A stretch of 27,878 nucleotides of DNA, from IMG/VR virus record IMGVR_UViG_3300023284_000157, positions 1 to 27,878 of that record; one strand, given 5' to 3'. The notes under the pieces are model-generated. The model had not been told where the DNA came from. It did not search any database and worked only from the letters and a program-made list of their open reading frames with translations. Source of the stretch: a virus. The number at the start of each line of letters is the position of its first letter. Position 1 is the stretch's first letter. Positions 4,019 to 21,826 of the stretch are shown in pieces. A program made the position numbers and the translations under genes.

Positions 4019-4375
4019 ATGATGCATGACGCCCCCCTCTTTACCAAGTACCACCGCCACGATCCAGCTACAAGCAGGACGGCAGCGGCGGTGTTCCGTA
4101 AGAGCGGCAAGCGTAAGACCCATGAGGCGATCATCCTAGAGGCGGTGACGGCCCATCCAGGCAACACAGCCCATGAGCTTGAGAAATACACACCGCTTAC
4201 CTACGTGCAGATAGACCGCCGTGCATTGGAAATGGAGCGCGACAGACTCATACACAGAAAAGGGGTGCGCCATGGCGCAATGTGCTGGTGGCCAGGACCA
4301 CAGAGATTCAATGGAGAACAAGAAGCGGTGGCTCCTATCCCACAAGTCACATACCCGCGTGGACGTCACCCGTGA
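4019..4375 (+). CDS. Winged-helix DNA-binding-like protein
   Basis: A 118-residue protein with a compact helical domain at about residues 17-85: DPATSRTAAAVFRKSGKRKTHEAIILEAV, then NTAHELEKYTPLTYVQIDRRALEMERDRLIHRKG. The pattern (helix, helix, recognition-like helix, then a wing ending in CWWPG) fits the small winged-helix/MarR-like proteins common near phage recombination genes. The start is at ATG 4019 or the next ATG 4022; the SD is weak (GAG). Its 3' end overlaps upstream parts of the next open frame. It may act as a transcription regulator or as an accessory to replication, but target and role are unknown. Confidence 0.7.
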   Translation: MMHDAPLFTKYHRHDPATSRTAAAVFRKSGKRKTHEAIILEAVTAHPGNTAHELEKYTPLTYVQIDRRALEMERDRLIHRKGVRHGAMCWWPGPQRFNGEQEAVAPIPQVTYPRGRHP

Positions 4376-4418
4376 ACACTACCTATGGCTATGCGAACAG
4401 ATAGAAAAGAGGCGAGCC

Positions 4419-4709
4419 ATGACGATTGAAGAACAGATTATTGAAAAGCTGGAAGCTGAAACAGAGGTTTCAAGAGAGCGCGAATACGTGGATTCGCCGT
4501 CCAGCGTGACCGGAAACAACATGACGGGCGCTCCCGTGGACAGTTTGGATATCCAGGGGCCTACGGAAGTGACGGTGACACTCGGCCTGGACGAAGATAT
4601 ACGGGCAGGTGTGTCCGCGAGCTTCAACGTAGACGGGCACGACGTAGACTTTGAGGCCACGTTAGAGAAACAAGTAGGGCTAGAGCTAACATACTCCCTT
4701 ATCTACTAG
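4419..4709 (+). CDS. Acidic hypothetical protein (start uncertain)
   Basis: The frame is open from 4221. Three ATGs are plausible: 4272 (AAGGGG six bases upstream, but a 104-base overlap with the preceding gene), 4311 (no SD), and 4419 (AGAGG six bases upstream, no overlap). I choose 4419, giving 96 residues beginning MTIEEQIIEKLE. The upstream in-frame segment (VTREHYLWLCEQIEKRRA) also looks protein-like, so a longer form is possible. The C-terminal half is β-rich and acidic (TEVTVTLGLDEDIRAGVSAS, then NVDGHDVDFEATLEKQ). No family is recognised. Confidence 0.6.
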   Translation: MTIEEQIIEKLEAETEVSREREYVDSPSSVTGNNMTGAPVDSLDIQGPTEVTVTLGLDEDIRAGVSASFNVDGHDVDFEATLEKQVGLELTYSLIY

Positions 4710-8080: not shown

Positions 8081-8122
8081 TAGGAAACAGACTTCGCAAC
8101 CCGTATGAAGGAGCTATGCACT

Positions 8123-8743
8123 ATGCAAAAGGCAAGTGAGATTGTAAGGCTGTTGGGTTTCATGCTGGCGTTTATAGCATTGAACGCAATGCTGTGCTTT
8201 GGTCTTGGCTGTCAACGGACAATGAGCAGCCAAGATGCTCCGGTGAATACACAGCAGGGCACACTTGGTCAAACAGATATCCTACAGATTCAGTTTTTCC
8301 CAGCACAGAGCCTCAATGCAAGGCCAGTACATGCGCGGGCAGCAGGCACAAGCGATGGTGTGGTCCCCGGCCCATTAGGGCGCAATTGGGCAGACGTAGC
8401 AAACTTCCAGGGCGCTACGTTTTACTTCAATGTGAGCGTGACTAGCGCCGGAGCAGATACAGCCTCAGAATCCAGAGGCGCGCCTACAACCGGGCCAGTG
8501 GATCAAAGCCCCAACCAGGACAACAGGCTAGCGCTACCCGTAGCTGTAGGGCCCAACCCAAGGGCCAGCGCTACCGTAGCAGACGAAGCAGCCGGGGACA
8601 CCACGACTGGTGGGGAAGCACAACCAAGCCCTGAGCGTACACCTGAGCCCCCTGCCGTTGATCCTCCCGCCGATGAGCCCATGACCCTGAGACAGCGGGA
8701 ACAAATCATGCTTGCACTGTTGGCCATGAGCAAGCGGCAATAA
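8123..8743 (+). CDS. Secreted or lipoprotein-like protein with Pro-rich C-terminus
   Basis: A 206-residue protein. ATG 8123 lies nine bases after AAGGAG; in-frame ATG 8105 has no SD. Residues 1-30 form a signal sequence: a few charged residues, then LLGFMLAFIALNAMLCFGLG, then C. GLGC resembles a lipobox, but the -3 position is Gly instead of Leu/Val/Ile, so lipidation is uncertain. The mature part has a short β-type region (ADVANFQGATFYFNVSV) and a long Pro/Ala/Thr/Glu-rich stretch ending in a helix (LRQREQIMLALLAM). It may be anchored in the envelope or act in superinfection exclusion or lysis. None of these is shown by the sequence. Confidence 0.65.
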   Translation: MQKASEIVRLLGFMLAFIALNAMLCFGLGCQRTMSSQDAPVNTQQGTLGQTDILQIQFFPAQSLNARPVHARAAGTSDGVVPGPLGRNWADVANFQGATFYFNVSVTSAGADTASESRGAPTTGPVDQSPNQDNRLALPVAVGPNPRASATVADEAAGDTTTGGEAQPSPERTPEPPAVDPPADEPMTLRQREQIMLALLAMSKRQ

Positions 8744-8768: not shown

Positions 8769-8840
8769 ATGAGCGGTAGAGCAGCAGAACGGTTCCCCAA
8801 AAAGATGTGGAAAGCGCACGCTTTGCGTCATGGACTGTGA
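8769..8840 (+). CDS. Short SD-led frame that may be the true start of the two-TM protein
   Basis: ATG 8769 has a strong AGGAGA about six bases upstream but reads only 23 codons (MSGRAAERFPKKMWKA...) to TGA 8838-8840. The two-TM protein that follows is in the -1 frame, opening at GTG 8807 with no SD. A -1 shift at CCCCAAAAAG (8795-8804) would join MSGRAAERFPKK directly to DVESARFASWT. Either a programmed frameshift, a missing A in the homopolymer, or translational coupling could explain it. Treat this entry and the next as possibly one gene. Confidence 0.4.
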   Translation: MSGRAAERFPKKMWKAHALRHGL

Positions 8841-9091
8841 CGCTAATTATCTCAGCAGTTTCAATAGCGTGCTGTCTTAGGCTTGGTGAGGTAGTAGCTC
8901 AGACCACTGAGGAATGGGTTATATTCATGGCCGTGTACGTAAGCGGCTTTGCATTGGCAATTGGTTGGACGCTACAAATATGTTCAACACCACACTTCCA
9001 CATAATGGAGAAGTTATTGAAGGTAACGGAAGATATGGGAGAACAGAACGAAAGGCTTATTAAGATTGCATTTGGAAAGGATAAGCCATGA
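8807..9091 (+). CDS. Two-TM membrane protein (holin-like architecture)
   Basis: The frame from GTG 8807 gives 94 residues with two hydrophobic segments, WTVTLIISAVSIACCLRLG (about 9-27) and VIFMAVYVSGFALAIGW (about 38-54), then a helical cytoplasmic-type tail (MEKLLKVTEDMGEQNERLIK). Two TM segments and about 100 residues match the general shape of class II holins, but many small phage membrane proteins share it. No endolysin is seen near it, so holin is only one option. The GTG has no SD; the true N-terminus may come from the SD-led frame at 8769. It overlaps the next gene by ATGA. Confidence 0.6.
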   Translation: MESARFASWTVTLIISAVSIACCLRLGEVVAQTTEEWVIFMAVYVSGFALAIGWTLQICSTPHFHIMEKLLKVTEDMGEQNERLIKIAFGKDKP

Positions 9092-9537
9092 GCGATGAAG
9101 GGCATGTAACAATGAGCAGAGAGGACGCTAAGAAGCGTGTACGCACAGCCGACATGCGCCGCGGTAAGCCGTGCATTGAACCCACCGCTTCACAGAAGCA
9201 GATAGCCAAGCTTGAAGAACAACGCGACCAGGCGCTTAACGATCGCGCAGACTTGGAATCTAGCGTAATGTCTGCGTTGGGCTGGGATACCAAGGGTGAA
9301 ACATTTGACGTTATCATACGTAGGCATAAAGAAATCGTGGACAAGTTGCCCAAGACAGCAGACGGCGTATCGGTTGTCCCTGGTATGGAATTGTGGTATC
9401 GCCATAAGTATGACGGTAGGTTTTTTATAATGACAGCCGCTTTCCATGATGCTGAAAGTATTGATTCAGCGTATTCTACGTTAGAAGCCGCCGAAGCTGC
9501 CTTAGAGGAAATGAAAAGTGCATACAAACACAGCTAA
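9088..9537 (+). CDS. Conserved-type phage protein with LPKTAD motif (paralogue of 15260)
   Basis: A 149-residue protein overlapping the previous gene by ATGA. The N-terminal half is charged and helical with coiled-coil character (KQIAKLEEQRDQALNDRADL). The C-terminal half is IVDKLPKTADGVSVVPGMEL, then a β segment (WYRHKYDGRFFIMTAAF), then YSTLEAAEAALEEMKS. The protein at 15260 has IVNRLPKTAD...PGMKVY...YSTQDEAEAAME in the same order. Proteins with LPKTADGVPV-x-PGM are frequent in phages and of unknown function. The conserved half looks like a small β domain closed by a helix. Confidence 0.75.
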   Translation: MSDEGHVTMSREDAKKRVRTADMRRGKPCIEPTASQKQIAKLEEQRDQALNDRADLESSVMSALGWDTKGETFDVIIRRHKEIVDKLPKTADGVSVVPGMELWYRHKYDGRFFIMTAAFHDAESIDSAYSTLEAAEAALEEMKSAYKHS

Positions 9538-9721
9538 ACATCTTCGCAACAAGAAGCTTGCTGATGCTACGGCTGAATTAGAACGCTGGATGCGAAAAGA
9601 AGGTAGCACCATGCTTACAACGATGGTTAACCGAAAGATAGGAAAAACTACATGGGAAAAGGTTAGGCCGGAATTCCTCTACAGCGACGGCATACAAGGT
9701 GGAAGCGGGATATTAGCATGA
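9518..9721 (+). CDS. Small hypothetical protein (GTG start)
   Basis: A 67-residue protein starting at GTG 9518, eight bases after AGAGGA, overlapping the previous gene by 20 bases. It has a helical N-terminus (LRNKKLADATAELERWMRK) and a C-terminal part TMVNRKIGKTTWEKVRPEFL that looks like a small conserved unit. Its last bases overlap the start of the first Tat-signal gene (ATGA at 9718). No function is recognised. Confidence 0.55.
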   Translation: MHTNTAKHLRNKKLADATAELERWMRKEGSTMLTTMVNRKIGKTTWEKVRPEFLYSDGIQGGSGILA

Positions 9722-10047
9722 GCCCCAAGATATCAAACGCAATGCGCAGAGGCGGTCTATCACGCAGAGGGTTTCTACGTGCGCTAGGAATAACTGCGTG
9801 CGCCGCGCTTGTGCCGGGGCTGGCATTCGCGCAAGTGGAATTGCCAAAGGGCTACATCACGCGAGCATTCCTAATGAACGGAATGCCACATGGGATCATT
9901 ACTGAAACTGGTGCGTATGCTATGGTGACACACGCACGCAACGAGAAGCACAACGGTCTATGGCGTATAGTCGAATCGTTCCACACACGAAACGGCGTCT
10001 GCTACAGAACCATTCCAGAACCAGCGTTGATCGGATGGGCACCATGA
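9718..10047 (+). CDS. Secreted protein with Tat signal peptide
   Basis: A 109-residue protein. Residues 9-38 form a textbook twin-arginine signal: basic n-region, S15-R16-R17-G-F-L, a moderately hydrophobic h-region (GITACAALVPGLA), and an AFA cleavage site before QVELPKGY. The mature ~70 residues are β-rich (YITRAFLMNGMPHGIITETG, then AYAMVTHA) with one cysteine. Tat exports folded, often cofactor-bearing, proteins across the cytoplasmic membrane. The start overlaps the previous gene by ATGA and the stop overlaps the next gene, which carries a nearly identical signal. The mature function is unknown. Confidence 0.7.
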   Translation: MSPKISNAMRRGGLSRRGFLRALGITACAALVPGLAFAQVELPKGYITRAFLMNGMPHGIITETGAYAMVTHARNEKHNGLWRIVESFHTRNGVCYRTIPEPALIGWAP

Positions 10048-10412
10048 ACAACAGCACTATTCAAACCATGAGAAAAGGCGGGCTCTCAAGACGCGGCTTC
10101 CTGAGAGCCTTGGGGATCACCAGTGCAAGCGTTCTGGTGCCGGGGCTGGCGATCAAGGAAAGCGCCTGTCCGTGGACACCGGCAGAGGCATACAAATACC
10201 CATCATGGGCCGCACCAGTGGGATTCAATGTGTGTGTCAGCAATGTGGGTGGGCAAAATTGGTATAGATACGTGGATCACAGAGACATGAAAGGCATGGG
10301 GAATTTCAAGGTAGAGATTGTTTCAACGGTGGAAATGAACGATTTGAAGGTGCAACTGCGATTACCAGACGACGGGATTTTAAGCTTGACACCTAGAAAA
10401 GTCAAGGCATAA
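10044..10412 (+). CDS. Second secreted protein with Tat signal peptide
   Basis: A 122-residue protein whose ATG 10044 overlaps the previous stop (ATGA). The signal matches its neighbour: GGLSRRGFLRALGIT is identical in both, with RR again at 16-17, followed by SASVLVPGLA. A clear AxA site is missing after LAIKESA, so the cleavage position is uncertain. The mature region does not resemble the first protein; it has VGFNVCVSNVGGQNWYRYV and a β-rich end (KVEIVSTVEMNDLKVQLRLP). The shared signal with different mature parts suggests signal duplication or domain swapping. It may act in the host periplasm. No family is recognised. Confidence 0.7.
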   Translation: MNNSTIQTMRKGGLSRRGFLRALGITSASVLVPGLAIKESACPWTPAEAYKYPSWAAPVGFNVCVSNVGGQNWYRYVDHRDMKGMGNFKVEIVSTVEMNDLKVQLRLPDDGILSLTPRKVKA

Positions 10413-10413
10413 A

Positions 10414-10905
10414 ATGGGTAGTACAATGCAACAAGCGGATGATAATGGTAAAGAGGGAGTAGGGGAAGAAAAAGTATTGCAGCCCCCACACTCAGACGTC
10501 CCTGCTTCAACTATCGGGGGCTCGGGGGCGCTCCAAGAAGGGCTAGAGGATCGTGCCCATGAACGCGGCACGGGCAGCATCATCCGACAGGCATTGGACA
10601 ACGGCTGGATATCTTTCTGGAACATTCCCAAAGACATGATGGATGATTTGCCCCGCATACTTACAGAGCATATCCGTGCGGCAAATGAACGCGGTGACAT
10701 GCGCACAGTTAAGGGCTTGAGCAATACGCTGCGTGCGCTGGTAGACAGCAACGTAAAGGCCGCAGAGCTTGTGGACAGAACCGACCGCCTGGACGCTGGG
10801 AAGCCTACGGACTCCTACGAGTTGCAGCCGGTTATCTTTCCGGGCATGACAAAGCCCTTGACGGCGAAGCGTGATGATGGTAGTAATGGTGACGCCGCAA
10901 CGTAG
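10414..10905 (+). CDS. Hypothetical protein, possibly terminase small subunit-like or virion accessory
   Basis: A 163-residue protein with AAGG six bases before ATG 10414. The N-terminal ~55 residues are low-complexity (Gly/Glu/Ser/Pro). Residues 56-135 form helices: IIRQALDNGWISFWNIPKDM, then LPRILTEHIRAANERGDMRT, GLSNTLRALVDSN and TDRLDAGKPTD. The IP...R-L...D-x-R-x-x...TLRAL pattern resembles short proteins found near some terminase genes that are sometimes called small-subunit-like. TerL is about 5 kb downstream, so this is weak. The end carries QPVIFPGMTKP. Function unresolved. Confidence 0.55.
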   Translation: MGSTMQQADDNGKEGVGEEKVLQPPHSDVPASTIGGSGALQEGLEDRAHERGTGSIIRQALDNGWISFWNIPKDMMDDLPRILTEHIRAANERGDMRTVKGLSNTLRALVDSNVKAAELVDRTDRLDAGKPTDSYELQPVIFPGMTKPLTAKRDDGSNGDAAT

Positions 10906-14897: not shown

Positions 14898-15263
14898 GTG
14901 AGCGACTACCAGCACAGCACGGACAAGGATAGGAAAGAATGGAAGGCTATGTGTGATGAGGCTCCACCTGGACCGTGGACACGATGCAGACCAGATAGGG
15001 ATAAGACAAAGCGCGTGCTTCTATGGTCGGCTAAAACGGAGCGCCCGATAGTGAAGCTAAATGGTGGAGGCGGTTATCTACAATGCACAGACTCTATGCT
15101 ATGGTTCCTTGAGAACAGCATCACGATATTGCCCCGGCTGATTGCAGACGTGGAGCGCCTAGAAAAAGATCGTGACAGATTGTTGGCATTGTCGGTTGAG
15201 CTTGCTAAGCCTGCCAATGGTATTCTTACAGGTGAGACAGTCATAGTGAAAGGCGGTGGATGA
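14898..15263 (+). CDS. Hypothetical phage protein (GTG start)
   Basis: A 121-residue protein; AGGAGTAAG just upstream supports the GTG at 14898. It contains a short PGPW segment (EAPPGPWTRCRPDRD), then SAKTERPIVKL, then FLENSITILPRLIADVERLE followed by KDRDRLLALSVELAK. This layout (GPW, a β pair, A-x-x-PLIA-x-ERL coiled coil) is typical of widespread phage proteins of unknown function. It overlaps the next gene by ATGA. Confidence 0.7.
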   Translation: MSDYQHSTDKDRKEWKAMCDEAPPGPWTRCRPDRDKTKRVLLWSAKTERPIVKLNGGGGYLQCTDSMLWFLENSITILPRLIADVERLEKDRDRLLALSVELAKPANGILTGETVIVKGGG

Positions 15264-15709
15264 TGCCCGAAGTGGCAACAGAAGAAGCACGCGGTTTCAC
15301 GGTCCCATTTAGTGAAAAGCTTTTGGACATGCTGGATAACGCCGCGCGAACATGCGCAAAGCAATGGCCCGATTCAGACAGCCCAGCAGGAGCGTGTAGA
15401 ACGGTATCTGTTGGTGTTAAAAATGGGCTCATTGAAATCATGCAATTACGTGATATTGTTAACAGACTACCTAAAACAGCGGACAACGCGCCAGCAACAC
15501 CAGGAATGAAAGTGTATGTTAAAGAAAATGAAATGCCACGAAGCTGCATGGGACAAGACTGGTTTGTTGGGAACGACTTACGGTATGCAACCTCAACGCC
15601 TGAAAATGACATGATTGGCATTGATAAATGTTACTCTACGCAGGATGAAGCCGAAGCCGCAATGGAAGCACCCAATGGAAGCAGCAGAGAAACAGCTAGT
15701 AAAGCTTGA
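15260..15709 (+). CDS. LPKTAD-motif protein, paralogue of 9088
   Basis: A 149-residue protein whose start (ATG 15260 or 15263) overlaps the previous stop. It shares IVNRLPKTAD, TPGMKVYV and a terminal CYSTQDEAEAAME with the protein at 9088, in the same order and to the same total length, but the N-terminal halves differ. The two are probably copies of one family that have diverged. TerL begins within its last 35 bases, so it is the last small gene before the packaging block. Function unknown. Confidence 0.7.
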   Translation: MMPEVATEEARGFTVPFSEKLLDMLDNAARTCAKQWPDSDSPAGACRTVSVGVKNGLIEIMQLRDIVNRLPKTADNAPATPGMKVYVKENEMPRSCMGQDWFVGNDLRYATSTPENDMIGIDKCYSTQDEAEAAMEAPNGSSRETASKA

Positions 15710-16976
15710 GCTACCAACGCTCTATCCCAAGCAGCAGGACGCAATATGCAGCCCGGCCCGTTGGGCGCTAATTGAAGCATCCACCAAGGCGGGTAAGTCT
15801 ACAGGCTGTCTTGTGTGGCTTCTGGCGCTTGGATGGAACGACGGGCACAAGGGCTGGAATGCAGGATGGGTAGCTCCCACCTATCGGCAGGCGAAGATCA
15901 TTGGCTTTGACCGTATGTATGCGGCGCTAGAGGCATGGGACGTTAGACAAACATGGTGGAGCTATTCACTTACTGAATTGACAATTACATTATTCAATGG
16001 CGCTAAATACTTCTTCTTAGGTGGCGACCGCCCCGAAACAATCTATGGCGATGATTGGTATGCAGCGGTCATTGATGAGGCCACGCTATGCCGACCGGCT
16101 GTGTTCTATGCTGTGCGCACGTTGTTGACATTCACCAAGGGGCCATGCCGGATCATCGGCAATGTGCGGGGCCGCAAGAATTGGGCGTACAAGCTGGCAC
16201 GTAAGGCACAGGCTGGGGAGAAGAATATGAGCTACGCCAAGCTTACGGCGCAAGATGCTGTAGATGGCGGTGTGCTGGATGCAGAGGAAATTGAAGATGC
16301 TAAGCGCCTGTTGCCGGAGAATGTATTTAAAGAGCTATACATGGCTGAGCCATGCGACGATGAGGGCAACCCCTTTGGGATCAAGGCCATTAACGCAATC
16401 TGTAGGGATGGCATATCTGGTGGAGAGGTTGTCGCCTACGGTGCAGATTTGGCAAAAAGCAGGGATTGGGCAGTATTGTTGGGCCTGGACGTAGATGGCC
16501 GGACAGCCAGCTTAGAGCGGTGGCAAGGGGATTGGAGGGGTACGCGCCAGCGGTTAGCGCTTGCAATCAAGGATAAGCCTGCATATATTGACAGCACTGG
16601 TGTAGGCGATCCAATTGTAGAGGACTTGCAGCGTGTATGTCCCAATGTTCAAGGCTTCAAGTTTACGAGCCAGAGCAAGCAGCAGCTAATGGAAGGGCTG
16701 GCGCTTGGCATCCAACAACAAGAAGTATGGATACCGAATGATCCAGAACATGCATGGCTTAAAGCAGAGCTTGATAGCTTTGAATATGAGTACACGCGCA
16801 CAGGTGTTCGGTACACCGCGCCAGAAGGGATGCATGACGATGGAGTAGATGCGTTGGCGCTAGGGTTTATGTGTCACAAGCGCCGTCCGAAGAATGAATT
16901 GATATGGCGCATGATCGGCTATGACGAAAATGAATTAGATGAATTAGAGGAAGATGAAATTGATAGCTTTACTTAA
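15675..16976 (+). CDS. terL: Terminase large subunit
   Basis: A 433-residue packaging ATPase/nuclease. Walker A is ASTKAGKST (residues 35-43). Walker B is AAVIDEA with D134-E135. The C-terminal RNase-H-like nuclease shows YGADLAKSRDW (D258), AYIDSTGVGD (D306) and MHDDGVDAL (D388/D389/D392). ATG 15675 follows GGAAG; the frame extends upstream to 15615 without support. It overlaps the previous gene by 35 bases and the portal by 23 bases. It threads concatemeric DNA through the portal and cuts it. I see no confident terminase small subunit immediately upstream. Confidence 0.95.
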   Translation: MEAAEKQLVKLELPTLYPKQQDAICSPARWALIEASTKAGKSTGCLVWLLALGWNDGHKGWNAGWVAPTYRQAKIIGFDRMYAALEAWDVRQTWWSYSLTELTITLFNGAKYFFLGGDRPETIYGDDWYAAVIDEATLCRPAVFYAVRTLLTFTKGPCRIIGNVRGRKNWAYKLARKAQAGEKNMSYAKLTAQDAVDGGVLDAEEIEDAKRLLPENVFKELYMAEPCDDEGNPFGIKAINAICRDGISGGEVVAYGADLAKSRDWAVLLGLDVDGRTASLERWQGDWRGTRQRLALAIKDKPAYIDSTGVGDPIVEDLQRVCPNVQGFKFTSQSKQQLMEGLALGIQQQEVWIPNDPEHAWLKAELDSFEYEYTRTGVRYTAPEGMHDDGVDALALGFMCHKRRPKNELIWRMIGYDENELDELEEDEIDSFT

Positions 16977-19596
16977 ACGGTTGTTTAGTAATTTGCCGGT
17001 GATTGGTGGTAGCGTGCGCGTCTTTGATGGCGCAGGGTCTAGCTTTGTACGCAACCACCCCTTTAACTATGCTCGCGCCGTTGCTCAATTTAACTCATGG
17101 GTCTATACGGCTTCGCGTATCGTGGCCTATGAGTTGGCCAAGCAACCACTACGCCTGTTTGTGCGTACACGCAATGGCACCAAACTATACCGTAGCCGTG
17201 GCGTAGACAGGCTGAGGAAGAATTACCTATGTGGCCGTGGGCTTGATCGTCCTAGCGCATATGTCATGCGCAAGGCCGCAGACTTCAATGACGATTTTGA
17301 AGAAGTGACGGAGCCTCATCCCGCCATTGAAGTCTTGGCAGAAGCCAACGACTTTGAAAATGGCTTTGGGCAAACAGCGCTACGTTTCATTTACTTGCAG
17401 CTTACCGGCAATAGCTACATGCATCCTGTGTTCAATCGGATGCTTGGCATTCCCGAAGAAGTGTGGTTGTTGCCTCCCCAATGGACAACCATTCTGCCCG
17501 ACAAAGAAGAATTCATACGCGGCTATCAATTCGGTGCCGAGTCTAGTAGTGAAAGGTTCTTTGAGCCCGATGAAGTTATCCACTTCAAGTTGCCCAACCC
17601 TGAGAATGTCTTTTATGGCAAGGGTCCGCTTGAAGCCATCTTTAGCGCATGGGGATTGCACCTTGATAAGCGGCAAATGGATTTGGCCAACTTCCAGAAC
17701 AGAGGTAGGCCCGATTGGATTATCGCTATCAAAGGGGCGAACCAAGATGCTGTAGATCGCTTTGAACGTAAGGTAGAGAACAAATTTAGAGGCCCGCGCA
17801 AAGCCGGTAGAATGTTGGCGCTGGCCAATGATGTAGAAGCAAAGCAGTTGTCTTTCCCGCCTGATATCATAGGCGATGCCGACAGAGTGCTAGATGAGAT
17901 ATCGTCTGCATTTGGCGTGCCTCGCGCTATGTTGACCGGCAATGCAAACATACCCGGTGGCGGGCCAGAGGTATCCGACTTTGGTTTTCAGCGTGGCACC
18001 ATCCTTCCGTATCTGCGCATGGATGAGGAAAGGCTTAACGAGAAATGGCTACCGCTGTTCGGCATAGAGGATGATGCATTTCTGGCCTATGACAATCCCG
18101 TACCGGAAGATAAGCAGTTTGAGCTAAGGCGCACAATTGAATTAACGACTTCCGGCATTACGTCCCGCAATGAAGCGCGTGCCGAATTGGGACTTGAACC
18201 CCATGAAGCAGATACCGCAGACGAATTGCTTATTGGTGGCAGAGACATAGACGCTGTTGGTCAAGCACAAGCAGGCGGCATTAGTGGACTCTTTGCCACG
18301 GCGCGGGCACCTGGAATGGAACGGATGGAGCCAAGCCAAGGAATCCAGGTGCCCCCGCCATCGGCAGAGCAGATATCCGAAATCGTAGCCGATGCCGTGC
18401 GTGTAGGTGTGCGTCGTGAAATGCGTAGAGGATTCAAGAAGGCTGAAAAGGATGATGAGCCAGTCATTACCAAGCCGCCTCCGCGCATGGCCGATGAGAC
18501 ATTGCAACAGTGCTTAAGTAGGGCGATCCCTGCATTGATTGAAGAAGGCAAGCCGATGGATCAAGCAGTTGCTATTGCACATGATCTATGTGAAAAGTGT
18601 ACGGAACCTGTAACCGAAAAGGAGGCCACAAAATGGCTAAGTCAAAGAGCGGTCATGGCGGGACTGGTAGACGAAAGAAGCCTGTGCGGGTGCGAAGCGG
18701 AAATGGAAGCCGAAAGCAGCAAACAGAACAAGAGCGACAGCGCAGGCGCAGAACGCGCGGGTATTGAATTACTGTTTGATCCACTCATTGTTAAGCAAGA
18801 TGCGGAAGCAGATATACGCGAAGATGAGCCGGAGCTACCCGGCGATCAAATGCGGCGCATACTGCAAGGCATCCTTGATTCAATGAAGGATGATATCTTG
18901 GGCGTTATATCACGCAGGGATACGCAGAAGATATTGGAGAACGTAGACTTTGACGATATAGAGGCGATCATTGCCGAGCATCGCAGCCAAATCTTTGAAG
19001 ATATCGCTTCACCGCTTGAACGCATTTTAACAGCGGGTGCAGGTGAAGGGCTTACCAGCATTAACCTTGAAGCATCTATCTTCTCAGTGACCGATCCCAA
19101 TGTGCAGAGCAAGCTCAATGCCTTTAGGGAGCGGCTTGCAGGCAATGTGACGGACAACACCATAACGCGGCTGCGGGCCAGTCTTGGCGAAGGCGTGGGC
19201 TTAGGCGAGACAGGGAGCCAGTTAGCCGACCGCGTAGAGGCTACGGGCCTGTTTGACCGCAACCGATCACAGATAATTGCCCGCACAGAATCGGCCCGCG
19301 CCTTCATTGAAGGCCAGCTAGAGGGCTGGAAACAAACCGACGTGGTAGCGGGCAAACAGTGGCTTTTGGCCCCCAATGCGTGCCCCTGGTGCAGAGCAGC
19401 GGCAAAAGCCTTCAACTCAGAAACCCGTACCCTTGACACATCGGTACAGAGTGTGATAGGAAGTAACGAGCTATCAGCGGTCTTTCCCGGTGGAAAGACA
19501 AGGGTGTTGAACCTAGACTATGCGCCAGTGTTAGGCGGTGGTTACTTACACCCGAATTGTAGATGCACGATTGTTCCCGTTTTAGTTAGCGAATGA
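16954..19596 (+). CDS. Portal protein fused to MuF-like minor head protein
   Basis: An 880-residue fusion. Residues ~25-430 are an HK97-type portal (phage_portal, PF04860): FNSWVYTASRIVAYELAKQP, GNSYMHPVFNR, VIHFKLPNPEN then FYGKGPLEAI, FGVPRAMLTGNAN. A linker follows with ETLQQCLSRAIPALIEEGKP and MDQAVAIAHDLCEKC. The C-terminal ~240 residues are MuF-like (PF04233): LAGNVTDNTITRLRASL, IIARTESARAFIEGQ, WLLAPNACPWCRAA and a final HPNCRC. Portal and MuF are usually separate genes. The ATG at 16954 lies three bases after AGAGG and overlaps terL. A small SD-led ORF in another frame lies in the linker (see 18633). Confidence 0.9.
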   Translation: MKLIALLKRLFSNLPVIGGSVRVFDGAGSSFVRNHPFNYARAVAQFNSWVYTASRIVAYELAKQPLRLFVRTRNGTKLYRSRGVDRLRKNYLCGRGLDRPSAYVMRKAADFNDDFEEVTEPHPAIEVLAEANDFENGFGQTALRFIYLQLTGNSYMHPVFNRMLGIPEEVWLLPPQWTTILPDKEEFIRGYQFGAESSSERFFEPDEVIHFKLPNPENVFYGKGPLEAIFSAWGLHLDKRQMDLANFQNRGRPDWIIAIKGANQDAVDRFERKVENKFRGPRKAGRMLALANDVEAKQLSFPPDIIGDADRVLDEISSAFGVPRAMLTGNANIPGGGPEVSDFGFQRGTILPYLRMDEERLNEKWLPLFGIEDDAFLAYDNPVPEDKQFELRRTIELTTSGITSRNEARAELGLEPHEADTADELLIGGRDIDAVGQAQAGGISGLFATARAPGMERMEPSQGIQVPPPSAEQISEIVADAVRVGVRREMRRGFKKAEKDDEPVITKPPPRMADETLQQCLSRAIPALIEEGKPMDQAVAIAHDLCEKCTEPVTEKEATKWLSQRAVMAGLVDERSLCGCEAEMEAESSKQNKSDSAGAERAGIELLFDPLIVKQDAEADIREDEPELPGDQMRRILQGILDSMKDDILGVISRRDTQKILENVDFDDIEAIIAEHRSQIFEDIASPLERILTAGAGEGLTSINLEASIFSVTDPNVQSKLNAFRERLAGNVTDNTITRLRASLGEGVGLGETGSQLADRVEATGLFDRNRSQIIARTESARAFIEGQLEGWKQTDVVAGKQWLLAPNACPWCRAAAKAFNSETRTLDTSVQSVIGSNELSAVFPGGKTRVLNLDYAPVLGGGYLHPNCRCTIVPVLVSE
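18633..18767 (+). CDS. Possible nested small basic protein inside the portal-MuF gene
   Basis: ATG 18633 in a frame different from the surrounding gene is preceded by AAAAGGAGG (18617-18625) with ideal seven-base spacing, among the strongest SD sequences in the window. It encodes 44 residues beginning MAKSKSGHGGTGRRKKPVRV and ending RRRRTRGY, extremely basic with about one third Arg/Lys. It falls exactly in the linker between portal and MuF domains, where the main frame is low-complexity. It may be a nucleic-acid-binding peptide, or a relic of a separate small gene. Expression is unproven. Confidence 0.45.
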   Translation: MAKSKSGHGGTGRRKKPVRVRSGNGSRKQQTEQERQRRRRTRGY

Positions 19597-19611
19597 ATGC
19601 GGAGCCGGGCA

Positions 19612-20295
19612 ATGGCTAAGAATAAGACGGACGTTAAAAAGACGTGGGTTGCCAAAGTCATTTCGGACGATGGCAATCGTTCCATTACAGCGCGTATAAG
19701 CACAGAAGATGTTGACCGTGACGGCGATGTATTGGTTCCGCAAGGTTGTGACTTCTCCCGCTTCAAAGACAATCCCGTTGTGTTCTTTGCCCATGACTAC
19801 ACCACGTTGCCTGTGGGTACATGCATAGACATTTCAAAGAACGATGCAGATATTGTTGCAACCACGAAGTTTGCTGAACGGCCCAAGTCTCATCCCGAAG
19901 CAGCTACGTGGATGCCCGATATCATCCTTGACCTATTCAGGCAGAAAGTCTTGAAGGGCTTTAGCGTTGGCCTGGACCCCGTTGAAATGCGACCGGCCAA
20001 GAAGGCAGACATTGAACGCTTTGGAAAGGGCGTTACCCGTGTAGTGAGTAAGTGGAGCTTGTTGGAATACAGCGTAGCTCCTATCCCGACCAACGACCGT
20101 GCATTAACTATGGCCGTAAGCAAGGGCGTGGTGTCACTGGATGATGCCCGCATTGCATGTCCCGGCTTGGAAACTCCAACGAAGAAGGCCATTGTTATTT
20201 GCATGGCTCCACCAAAGAAGAAGAAAAGCAAGCCCAACGTGGGCTTGATAATCACCCGTGCAATCAAACATGCAGCGGGGAAACTTTATGAGTGA
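19612..20295 (+). CDS. HK97-type prohead maturation protease
   Basis: A 227-residue protein. GGAG seven bases before ATG 19612 favours this start over ATG 19597. It matches the HK97 family serine protease (peptidase U35): DRDGDVLVPQGCDFSRF, NPVVFFAHDYTTLPVGT with H61, KVLKGFSVGLDP with S118, and WSLLEYSVAPIPTNDRAL. These proteases clip the scaffold-like delta domain of the capsid protein and then themselves. The C-terminus carries PPKKKKSKP. It precedes the major capsid gene with a 112-base gap in which I see no supported gene, promoter or terminator. Confidence 0.93.
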   Translation: MAKNKTDVKKTWVAKVISDDGNRSITARISTEDVDRDGDVLVPQGCDFSRFKDNPVVFFAHDYTTLPVGTCIDISKNDADIVATTKFAERPKSHPEAATWMPDIILDLFRQKVLKGFSVGLDPVEMRPAKKADIERFGKGVTRVVSKWSLLEYSVAPIPTNDRALTMAVSKGVVSLDDARIACPGLETPTKKAIVICMAPPKKKKSKPNVGLIITRAIKHAAGKLYE

Positions 20296-20407
20296 ATGAC
20301 GGCAGGCAATATGGGCGAGTGCTTACAACGGGTTATGCCGAGTAAGACAACGCAATAAATCAGCCAGTGCCGAAGTGTTTGTGAATCAATAAAGGAAAGG
20401 AATTGCA

Positions 20408-21826
20408 ATGACTGTTAAAGAATTGGAAATGATTTTGCCTTCGCTTATTAAAGCGCATGGCAATGGCAAGCCCCTGATTAAAGCAATCAATGGAATGCTT
20501 AAGCAGGGCGATGAGGTAGTCCCCATTGTTAATGAGAATGGGGAACCTGTACTGATTGAAGAAATCATCCTTGTTGGCGCACCCAGCGAGGCTGAGATCG
20601 AGGAATTGGAAGAAGAAGCAGGAGAACCCGCCCAGGAACCGGCCAGCACTCCTGCAATTCAGGCAGCGATAAAGAAGGCTGTAGCCGAAGCGTTCAAGAG
20701 CGCAACGACCAAGGCCGCTTTGAATATCAGTGGTGGAGCGCCTGCATCCGAAAAGGATGAAGAGCGCTTCGGATTTAAGAGCATGGGCGAACAGCTTATG
20801 TGCGTAGTCACCGCTTGCGGTGGCGGCGGCGTAGACCAGCGGCTTTACAAGGGATTCACCGGCGACAAGGCCATGTTGAAGCAGCCCACGACGGTATCTA
20901 ATACCGGCGTAGGTGCGGAAGGTGGTTTTACGATTGCCCCTATGTTTGTAAGTGAGATTAGGGAAATCACAGAAGCCGAAGAATCCCTGCTTAGTCGCGT
21001 TAATATCATGCCGGTGACTGGTAACTCCATCACGGTTCCAGCCGATGAGAACACGGATTGGGATACGGTTAGGGGCATCCAGGCCAAGGCGACAGCGGAG
21101 AACGCGAAGAAAACACAGAGCAAGATTGATCTTAAGCAGTTGAATTTGCGTCTTAAGAAGATCGTTTCACTTGTGCCTGTGACCGATGAATTGCTTGATG
21201 ATAACGCTACAGCGCTTGCGACGTATGTTTCCCGCAAGGCTGGCCGGAAAATTGATTTTGAATCCGGTGAATGGATTGTGCGCGGCACAGGTGCGGGTGA
21301 AGCATTGGGCTTCTTGAATTCTCCGGCCCTTGTGTCAGTTGCCAAAGAAGGTGGACAAGCTACGGATACAATCGTCTACAACAACATCATTAAGATGTGG
21401 TCGCGCATGTACGGTCCCAACCGTTCCCGTGGCATCTGGTTAATCAACCAGGACATTGAGCCGCAGTTGTTCCAGCTTAGTTTTGAAGGTACATCATCCA
21501 GCGTCCCGGCTTATCTGCCTGCCAACGGGCTTTCAGATTCTCCGTTCGGTTCGCTGTTTGGCCGTCCCGTCGTTCCTACACAACATGCTGAAACTCTTGG
21601 CGACAAGGGCGACATTATGTTTGTGGACCTGGATGCCTACTTGGTTATCCAGAAGGAAGGCGGCATTCAGGCAGCCGAGTCAATGCATGTGTGGTTTGAC
21701 TTCGACACCACGGCGTTCCGCTTCGTCATGCGTATGGACGGGCAGCCTTGGTGGACCGCACCCATTACACCGCGTAAAGGCACCGCCACATTGAGTCCCT
21801 TTGTGACGTTGGATGCACGCGCTTAA
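20408..21826 (+). CDS. HK97-fold major capsid protein
   Basis: A 472-residue protein with AAAGGAAAGGAATT before ATG 20408. The N-terminal ~110 residues are acidic and helical (EAEIEELEEEAGEPAQEPAS, then AAIKKAVAEAF), the expected scaffold-like delta region removed by the protease. The shell domain has VGAEGGFTIAPMFVSEIREI, NSITVPADENTDW, LVPVTDELLDD, ESGEWIVRGTGAGEALGFLN, SRGIWLINQDIEPQLFQLSF, SLFGRPVVPTQHAETLGDKG and DIMFVDLDAYLVIQ, in the order of phage_capsid (PF05065). The protease gene directly upstream supports the assignment. Cleavage probably lies near residue 110-150. I see no truncation. Confidence 0.94.
   Translation: MTVKELEMILPSLIKAHGNGKPLIKAINGMLKQGDEVVPIVNENGEPVLIEEIILVGAPSEAEIEELEEEAGEPAQEPASTPAIQAAIKKAVAEAFKSATTKAALNISGGAPASEKDEERFGFKSMGEQLMCVVTACGGGGVDQRLYKGFTGDKAMLKQPTTVSNTGVGAEGGFTIAPMFVSEIREITEAEESLLSRVNIMPVTGNSITVPADENTDWDTVRGIQAKATAENAKKTQSKIDLKQLNLRLKKIVSLVPVTDELLDDNATALATYVSRKAGRKIDFESGEWIVRGTGAGEALGFLNSPALVSVAKEGGQATDTIVYNNIIKMWSRMYGPNRSRGIWLINQDIEPQLFQLSFEGTSSSVPAYLPANGLSDSPFGSLFGRPVVPTQHAETLGDKGDIMFVDLDAYLVIQKEGGIQAAESMHVWFDFDTTAFRFVMRMDGQPWWTAPITPRKGTATLSPFVTLDARA

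Follow-up and report, generated by a model that had tools for sequence, protein, structure and literature searches.

Small phage proteins that act in the periplasm are already known. The early protein Spackle (gp61.3) of phage T4 has a localization signal that is cleaved off, leaving a mature periplasmic protein of 75 residues that blocks superinfecting phage (PMC7677548), and the T4 antiholin RI, also a small protein, carries a cleavable signal peptide and acts in the periplasm (PMC8385771). Signals for the twin-arginine translocation (Tat) pathway are characterized by an SRRxFLK motif, modest hydrophobicity and a helix-breaking residue (Gly, Ser or Pro) close to the end of the hydrophobic region (h-region); the non-arginine positions of the motif are semi-conserved and dispensable for Tat (PMC7317946). 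Here, we describe two adjacent genes, denoted A and B, in the complete 27,878-base virus record IMGVR_UViG_3300023284_000157 (the window). The pair is real and uncommon, and none of the papers that we searched documents the Tat route for phages. On balance, we favor the reading that A and B are coupled small precursors with signals of one origin on different mature domains, exported in the folded state by Tat; their likeliest role, though a guess, would be that of accessory envelope proteins.

Two predicted Tat precursors with a common signal

Gene A (9718..10047, + strand) encodes a predicted Tat precursor of 109 residues, and gene B (10044..10412, + strand) one of 122 residues that starts at Met29 of the listed open reading frame (ORF). 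The ATG of B at 10044 overlaps the stop codon of A as ATGA. In both genes, the codon use fits the true frame best among the six frames. An initial annotation, which had described two adjacent phage genes with near-identical Tat signal peptides, was right about the coordinates, the frames and the phage origin of the contig.

Alignment of the two N-termini showed that residues 12–26 (GGLSRRGFLRALGIT, the twin-arginine core; 9751..9795 in A and 10077..10121 in B, + strand) are identical at 15/15 positions and residues 31–36 (LVPGLA; 9808..9825 in A and 10134..10151 in B, + strand) at 6/6 positions, in register. The residues common to both at equal positions are M9-R10, G12-T26 and L31-A36. The near identity thus applies to the two blocks, but not to residues 2–8 and 27–30, where A and B are unlike, as they are at almost all positions beyond 36. 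Overall, 24/36 residues are identical, or 23/28 when counted from Met9. Since Met9 is common to both proteins and residues 2–8 are not, translation of A and B may start at Met9, an alternative start that would leave the signals unaffected. The alignment score of the two signals was 118, compared to 43 for the best of 2000 shuffles, and the pattern RRGFLRALGIT is present in exactly two copies in the window and was absent from 100 shuffles.

The anatomy of both signals agrees with that of published Tat signals (PMC7317946). SRRGFLR, found in A and B, is a Tat motif of the S/T-R-R-x-F-L-K type. It is followed by a moderately hydrophobic h-region (mean Kyte–Doolittle value of 1.65 in A and 1.56 in B), which ends in LVPGLA with the helix breaker Pro33-Gly34 near its end. 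In A, an AxA signal-peptidase site (AFA/Q) comes next; in B, LVPGLA leads into a weak GLA/I site and Lys38, a possible Sec-avoidance residue. With the NCBIfam Tat-signal profile TIGR01409 (curated cut-off, 16.7 bits), the A and B proteins scored 19.8 and 17.2 bits, and their DNA 21.3 and 19.3 bits, respectively. These were the only TIGR01409 matches in the whole record, and a six-frame motif scan of the record yielded no other twin-arginine sequence that was judged to be signal-like.

The DNA encoding the signals has diverged mainly at synonymous positions, as previously claimed. In codons 12–26, 13 of the 15 codons differ between A and B, and every difference is synonymous, including swaps between the two arginine codon families. 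The two identical codons, compared to 4.06 expected from independent codon draws, are no more than independent choice would give, showing that the synonymous sites are saturated. Over codons 9–36, the Nei–Gojobori proportions of synonymous (pS) and nonsynonymous (pN) differences were 0.79 and 0.21. Saturation of the synonymous sites in an unchanged protein means that the identity is held by selection at the protein level. This selection is also evidence for translation of both frames. The two signals are of common ancestry; convergence is unlikely, because the motif is so rare (see below). As the non-arginine positions of the motif are dispensable for Tat, their conservation here goes beyond the known needs of targeting, and such strict conservation would point to a function in addition to targeting. 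In the second block, LVPGLA, 4/6 codons are identical (P = 0.037), a value to which we attach no interpretation.

Two other causes of the codon divergence received no support. Selection against direct repeats gave P = 0.18 for the two identical core codons against the 4.06 expected, and an mRNA hairpin in the B signal gave z = 0.35 over 71 nt and z = −1.65 for a 35-nt stem. The DNA of the B signal does hold an inverted repeat of eleven pairs (10081–10109); its folding over 71 nt was no stronger than that of shuffles.

Signals of one origin on mature parts that are no more alike than shuffles leave two possibilities: a single signal segment became attached to two domains, or the mature domains have diverged past recognition. 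A different history, in which A and B were acquired separately from an unsampled phage protein family with this signal, with no duplication within the phage and with Tat export as in the reading we favor, is possible but in our view considerably less probable. The synonymous saturation does imply an old common ancestor, the mature parts cannot be aligned, and other phage contigs carry similar signals, all of which would fit separate acquisition. However, A and B are adjacent and in register, which is more simply explained by local duplication, and no further carrier of GLSRRGFLRALGI(T) was found.

The mature domains and other carriers of the block

If cleaved after AFA38, the mature part of A would comprise about 71 residues (8.0 kDa). 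That of B would comprise about 86 residues (9.7 kDa) and contains two cysteines; both are predicted to be basic. The mature regions had been described as unlike, and alignment of mature A with mature B was indeed no better than that of shuffles (P = 0.10–0.83 over ten settings); paralogy over the full length was not found. Sequence searches of cultured phages, IMG/VR, plasmids, PHROGs, PADLOC and the PDB returned no homologues of A or B, and the PADLOC defence models gave no match at E ≤ 1. The best PDB sequence match of the B N-terminus, to the N-terminal region of nitrous-oxide reductase, was insignificant (E = 0.7). Nitrous-oxide reductase is a Tat substrate. Two weak matches to the B signal were rejected: a “holin” of Xanthomonas phage PBR31, which lacks the twin arginine, and a histidine kinase-like protein in a human gut contig. 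The structure check of the mature domains that had been proposed produced models, but these single-sequence predictions were too poor to use, with a mean predicted local distance difference test (pLDDT) value of 39 for A and 47 for B; the mature parts were modeled as mostly beta, which does not constitute evidence at this confidence.

The block itself is rare. Among 2.9 million viral contigs, none matched GLSRRGFLRALGI and one matched the looser pattern GxSRRGFLRALG. Neither GLSRRGFLRALGIT nor RRGFLRALGIT was found in about 85,000 prokaryote genomes, a scan run without a positive control; the RRGFLRALGIT pattern does recover both window copies, and a sister pattern found a carrier in the viral set (L003, below). 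A search for relatives of the window phage based on TerL returned none. The comparison set consisted of 80 viral contigs that were collected by capsid alignment as carriers of a related capsid gene, plus the two cultured phages whose capsids are nearest. None of these 82 records contained a TIGR01409 match above the cut-off; Tat signals are thus rare in this phage group, consistent with the earlier claim that Tat export of phage products is uncommon. Because many of the records are short fragments that do not extend into the corresponding small-gene region, this result supports rarity without proving absence.

Similar signals were found in two other settings. L003 (IMGVR_UViG_3300022723_000184), a 202-kb viral contig, encodes a lone 110-residue protein (4262–4594) with the signal GMSRRGFLRALGVT and a TIGR01409 score of 21.1 bits; its gene is directly followed by one for a small membrane protein-like product. 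The contigs L094 and L095 represent another phage lineage, unrelated to that of the window and with an SU10-type portal, in which two otherwise unlike proteins share the block KGG[LM]S[RK]RGFL, followed by APDLIK 13–17 residues further on. The block-bearing loci are at 105–1520 and about 6447 in L094 and at 51–800 and 5374–5664 in L095; the copies are about 5.6 kb apart. One carrier is a 96-residue protein that scores 17.1 bits with TIGR01409, above the cut-off. In the second carrier, the block lies inside the protein, at residue 231 of 471, and has KR in place of RR. A like block adjoins the portal gene, and there is no clear AxA or other cleavage site. This two-block design parallels that of the window pair, and with a shared Tat-like block in a second lineage, the idea of phage use of Tat becomes testable in more than one system.

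The internal copy cautions against taking every Tat-like block for an export signal. We considered whether the block could be a Tat look-alike, a short membrane-active or virion-related motif whose bearers remain in the membrane or become part of the virion. The position of the L094/L095 block beside the portal gene, the KR in one copy, the lack of a clear AxA site and PF10518 scores below the cut-off (see below) would all be compatible with this, whereas both window copies are N-terminal, contain RR and pass TIGR01409, making a look-alike improbable for A and B. It is equally improbable that the signals are themselves the active part, occupying TatBC to block or reprogramme host Tat export, with the mature parts as stoppers or anchors. 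A cleavable export signal would make no sense inside a 471-residue protein, as in the second lineage, a point in favor of this reading. In the window, however, the AFA cleavage site of A is a good one, and the length of the mature parts (71 and 86 residues), together with their in-frame codon use, points to working domains. A broader idea, that unrelated phage lineages repeatedly place a single twin-arginine cassette, made up of GG-[LM]-S-[RK]-R-G-F-L and a second, helix-breaking block, on several unlike proteins of one genome, either to export folded proteins via host TatABC or to occupy TatABC during infection, strikes us as rather unlikely.

Phage record and gene neighborhood

The window phage is a tailed phage (Caudoviricetes), with PHROG matches to TerL, portal and HK97-type capsid genes. 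The record has no end repeats and is probably a fragment. Its cultured relatives are distant, with about 24–28% identity in the portal and ≤35% in the capsid. All genes in the following order are on the + strand: the exonuclease VIII-like (1696) and RecT-like (2977) proteins, both identified by profile match, are followed by a run of small genes, the head module (15615..21826) and tail-fibre-like and connector genes. The head module consists of TerL (15615), a portal with a head-morphogenesis domain (16954), a protease (19597) and the HK97-type capsid protein (20408), all matched by PHROG.

A and B sit in the small-gene run upstream of the head genes. A small ORF just upstream (9518..9721, + strand), belonging to the same coupled gene run, has a 4-base ATGA overlap with A, and an ORF of 163 residues without a family match (10414..10905, + strand) starts 1 base past the end of B. 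The ATGA overlaps and the 1-base gap suggest that A and B are translationally coupled. A strong sigma-70-like match (TTGACA-18-TAAAAT, 11/12) is found at 10386–10415, at the end of B and ahead of the next gene; the region overall has no excess of such matches. Shortly upstream of A, 8105–8743 encodes a protein rich in Pro whose hydrophobic N-terminus ends in LGC (a possible lipoprotein), and 8807–9091 a protein with two hydrophobic stretches; the region upstream of A may be richer in envelope proteins. By eye, the products of 9088–9537 and 15260–15709 are paralogue-like, with LPKTAD...PGM in each and C-terminal parts (YST..EAEAA) that resemble one another.

Proposed export and comparison with known systems

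Under the reading that we favor, one signal-coding segment would have been joined to two different mature domains. The host TatABC, whose presence we assume, would recognize SRRGFLR and translocate each small domain in its folded state over the inner membrane; cleavage of the precursors by signal peptidase would then yield basic periplasmic proteins of roughly 8 and 10 kDa, which would act jointly. The mature proteins could serve as accessory envelope proteins, for example by excluding superinfecting phage or by shielding the envelope, in the manner of T4 Spackle; this role is a doubtful guess from their size, predicted location and gene position. We favor Tat export of A and B because both signals pass TIGR01409 and combine a perfect SRRxFLK-type core with the h-region, Pro-Gly and, in A, the AFA site; because 15/15 residues are identical at saturated synonymous sites and ATGA overlaps link the two genes; and because Spackle and RI provide precedents for small periplasmic phage proteins.

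Several points weigh against it. The TIGR01409 prediction was not matched by the Pfam profile PF10518, for which A and B scored 14.0 and 14.3 bits, under the gathering score of 22.7 bits (a profile threshold rather than a biochemical feature). B has only GLA/I in place of a clean AxA site, A and B have neither detected homologues nor usable structure models, and no phage protein was described as Tat-exported in the open-licence literature searched. Taken together, the results partly support the interpretation in the initial annotation. Should A and B indeed be exported through TatABC, phages would be making use of folded-protein export, with A and B as a compact test case.

Among known systems, A and B resemble bacterial Tat signals, as modeled by TIGR01409, in their SRRxFLK-type core, moderate h-region, Pro/Gly near its end and, in A only, AxA site. 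They differ in being adjacent orphan phage genes and in having a 15-residue block that is identical between unrelated proteins. Like T4 Spackle, A and B are predicted to be small periplasmic phage proteins with a removed signal; Spackle, however, is the product of a single gene and a compact alpha-helical bundle with a disulfide, whereas the A and B models are mostly beta at very low confidence. T4 RI, also encoded by a single gene, differs in its role in lysis control, and neither Spackle nor RI showed sequence homology to A or B in the phage collection, PHROGs or the PDB. The L003 protein is likewise a small phage-contig protein with a Tat signal, but comes from a single gene on a 202-kb contig and has an unrelated mature part. 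L094 and L095 share with the window the presence of one block on two otherwise unlike proteins of the same phage, although there the two copies are far apart and the internal one carries KR.
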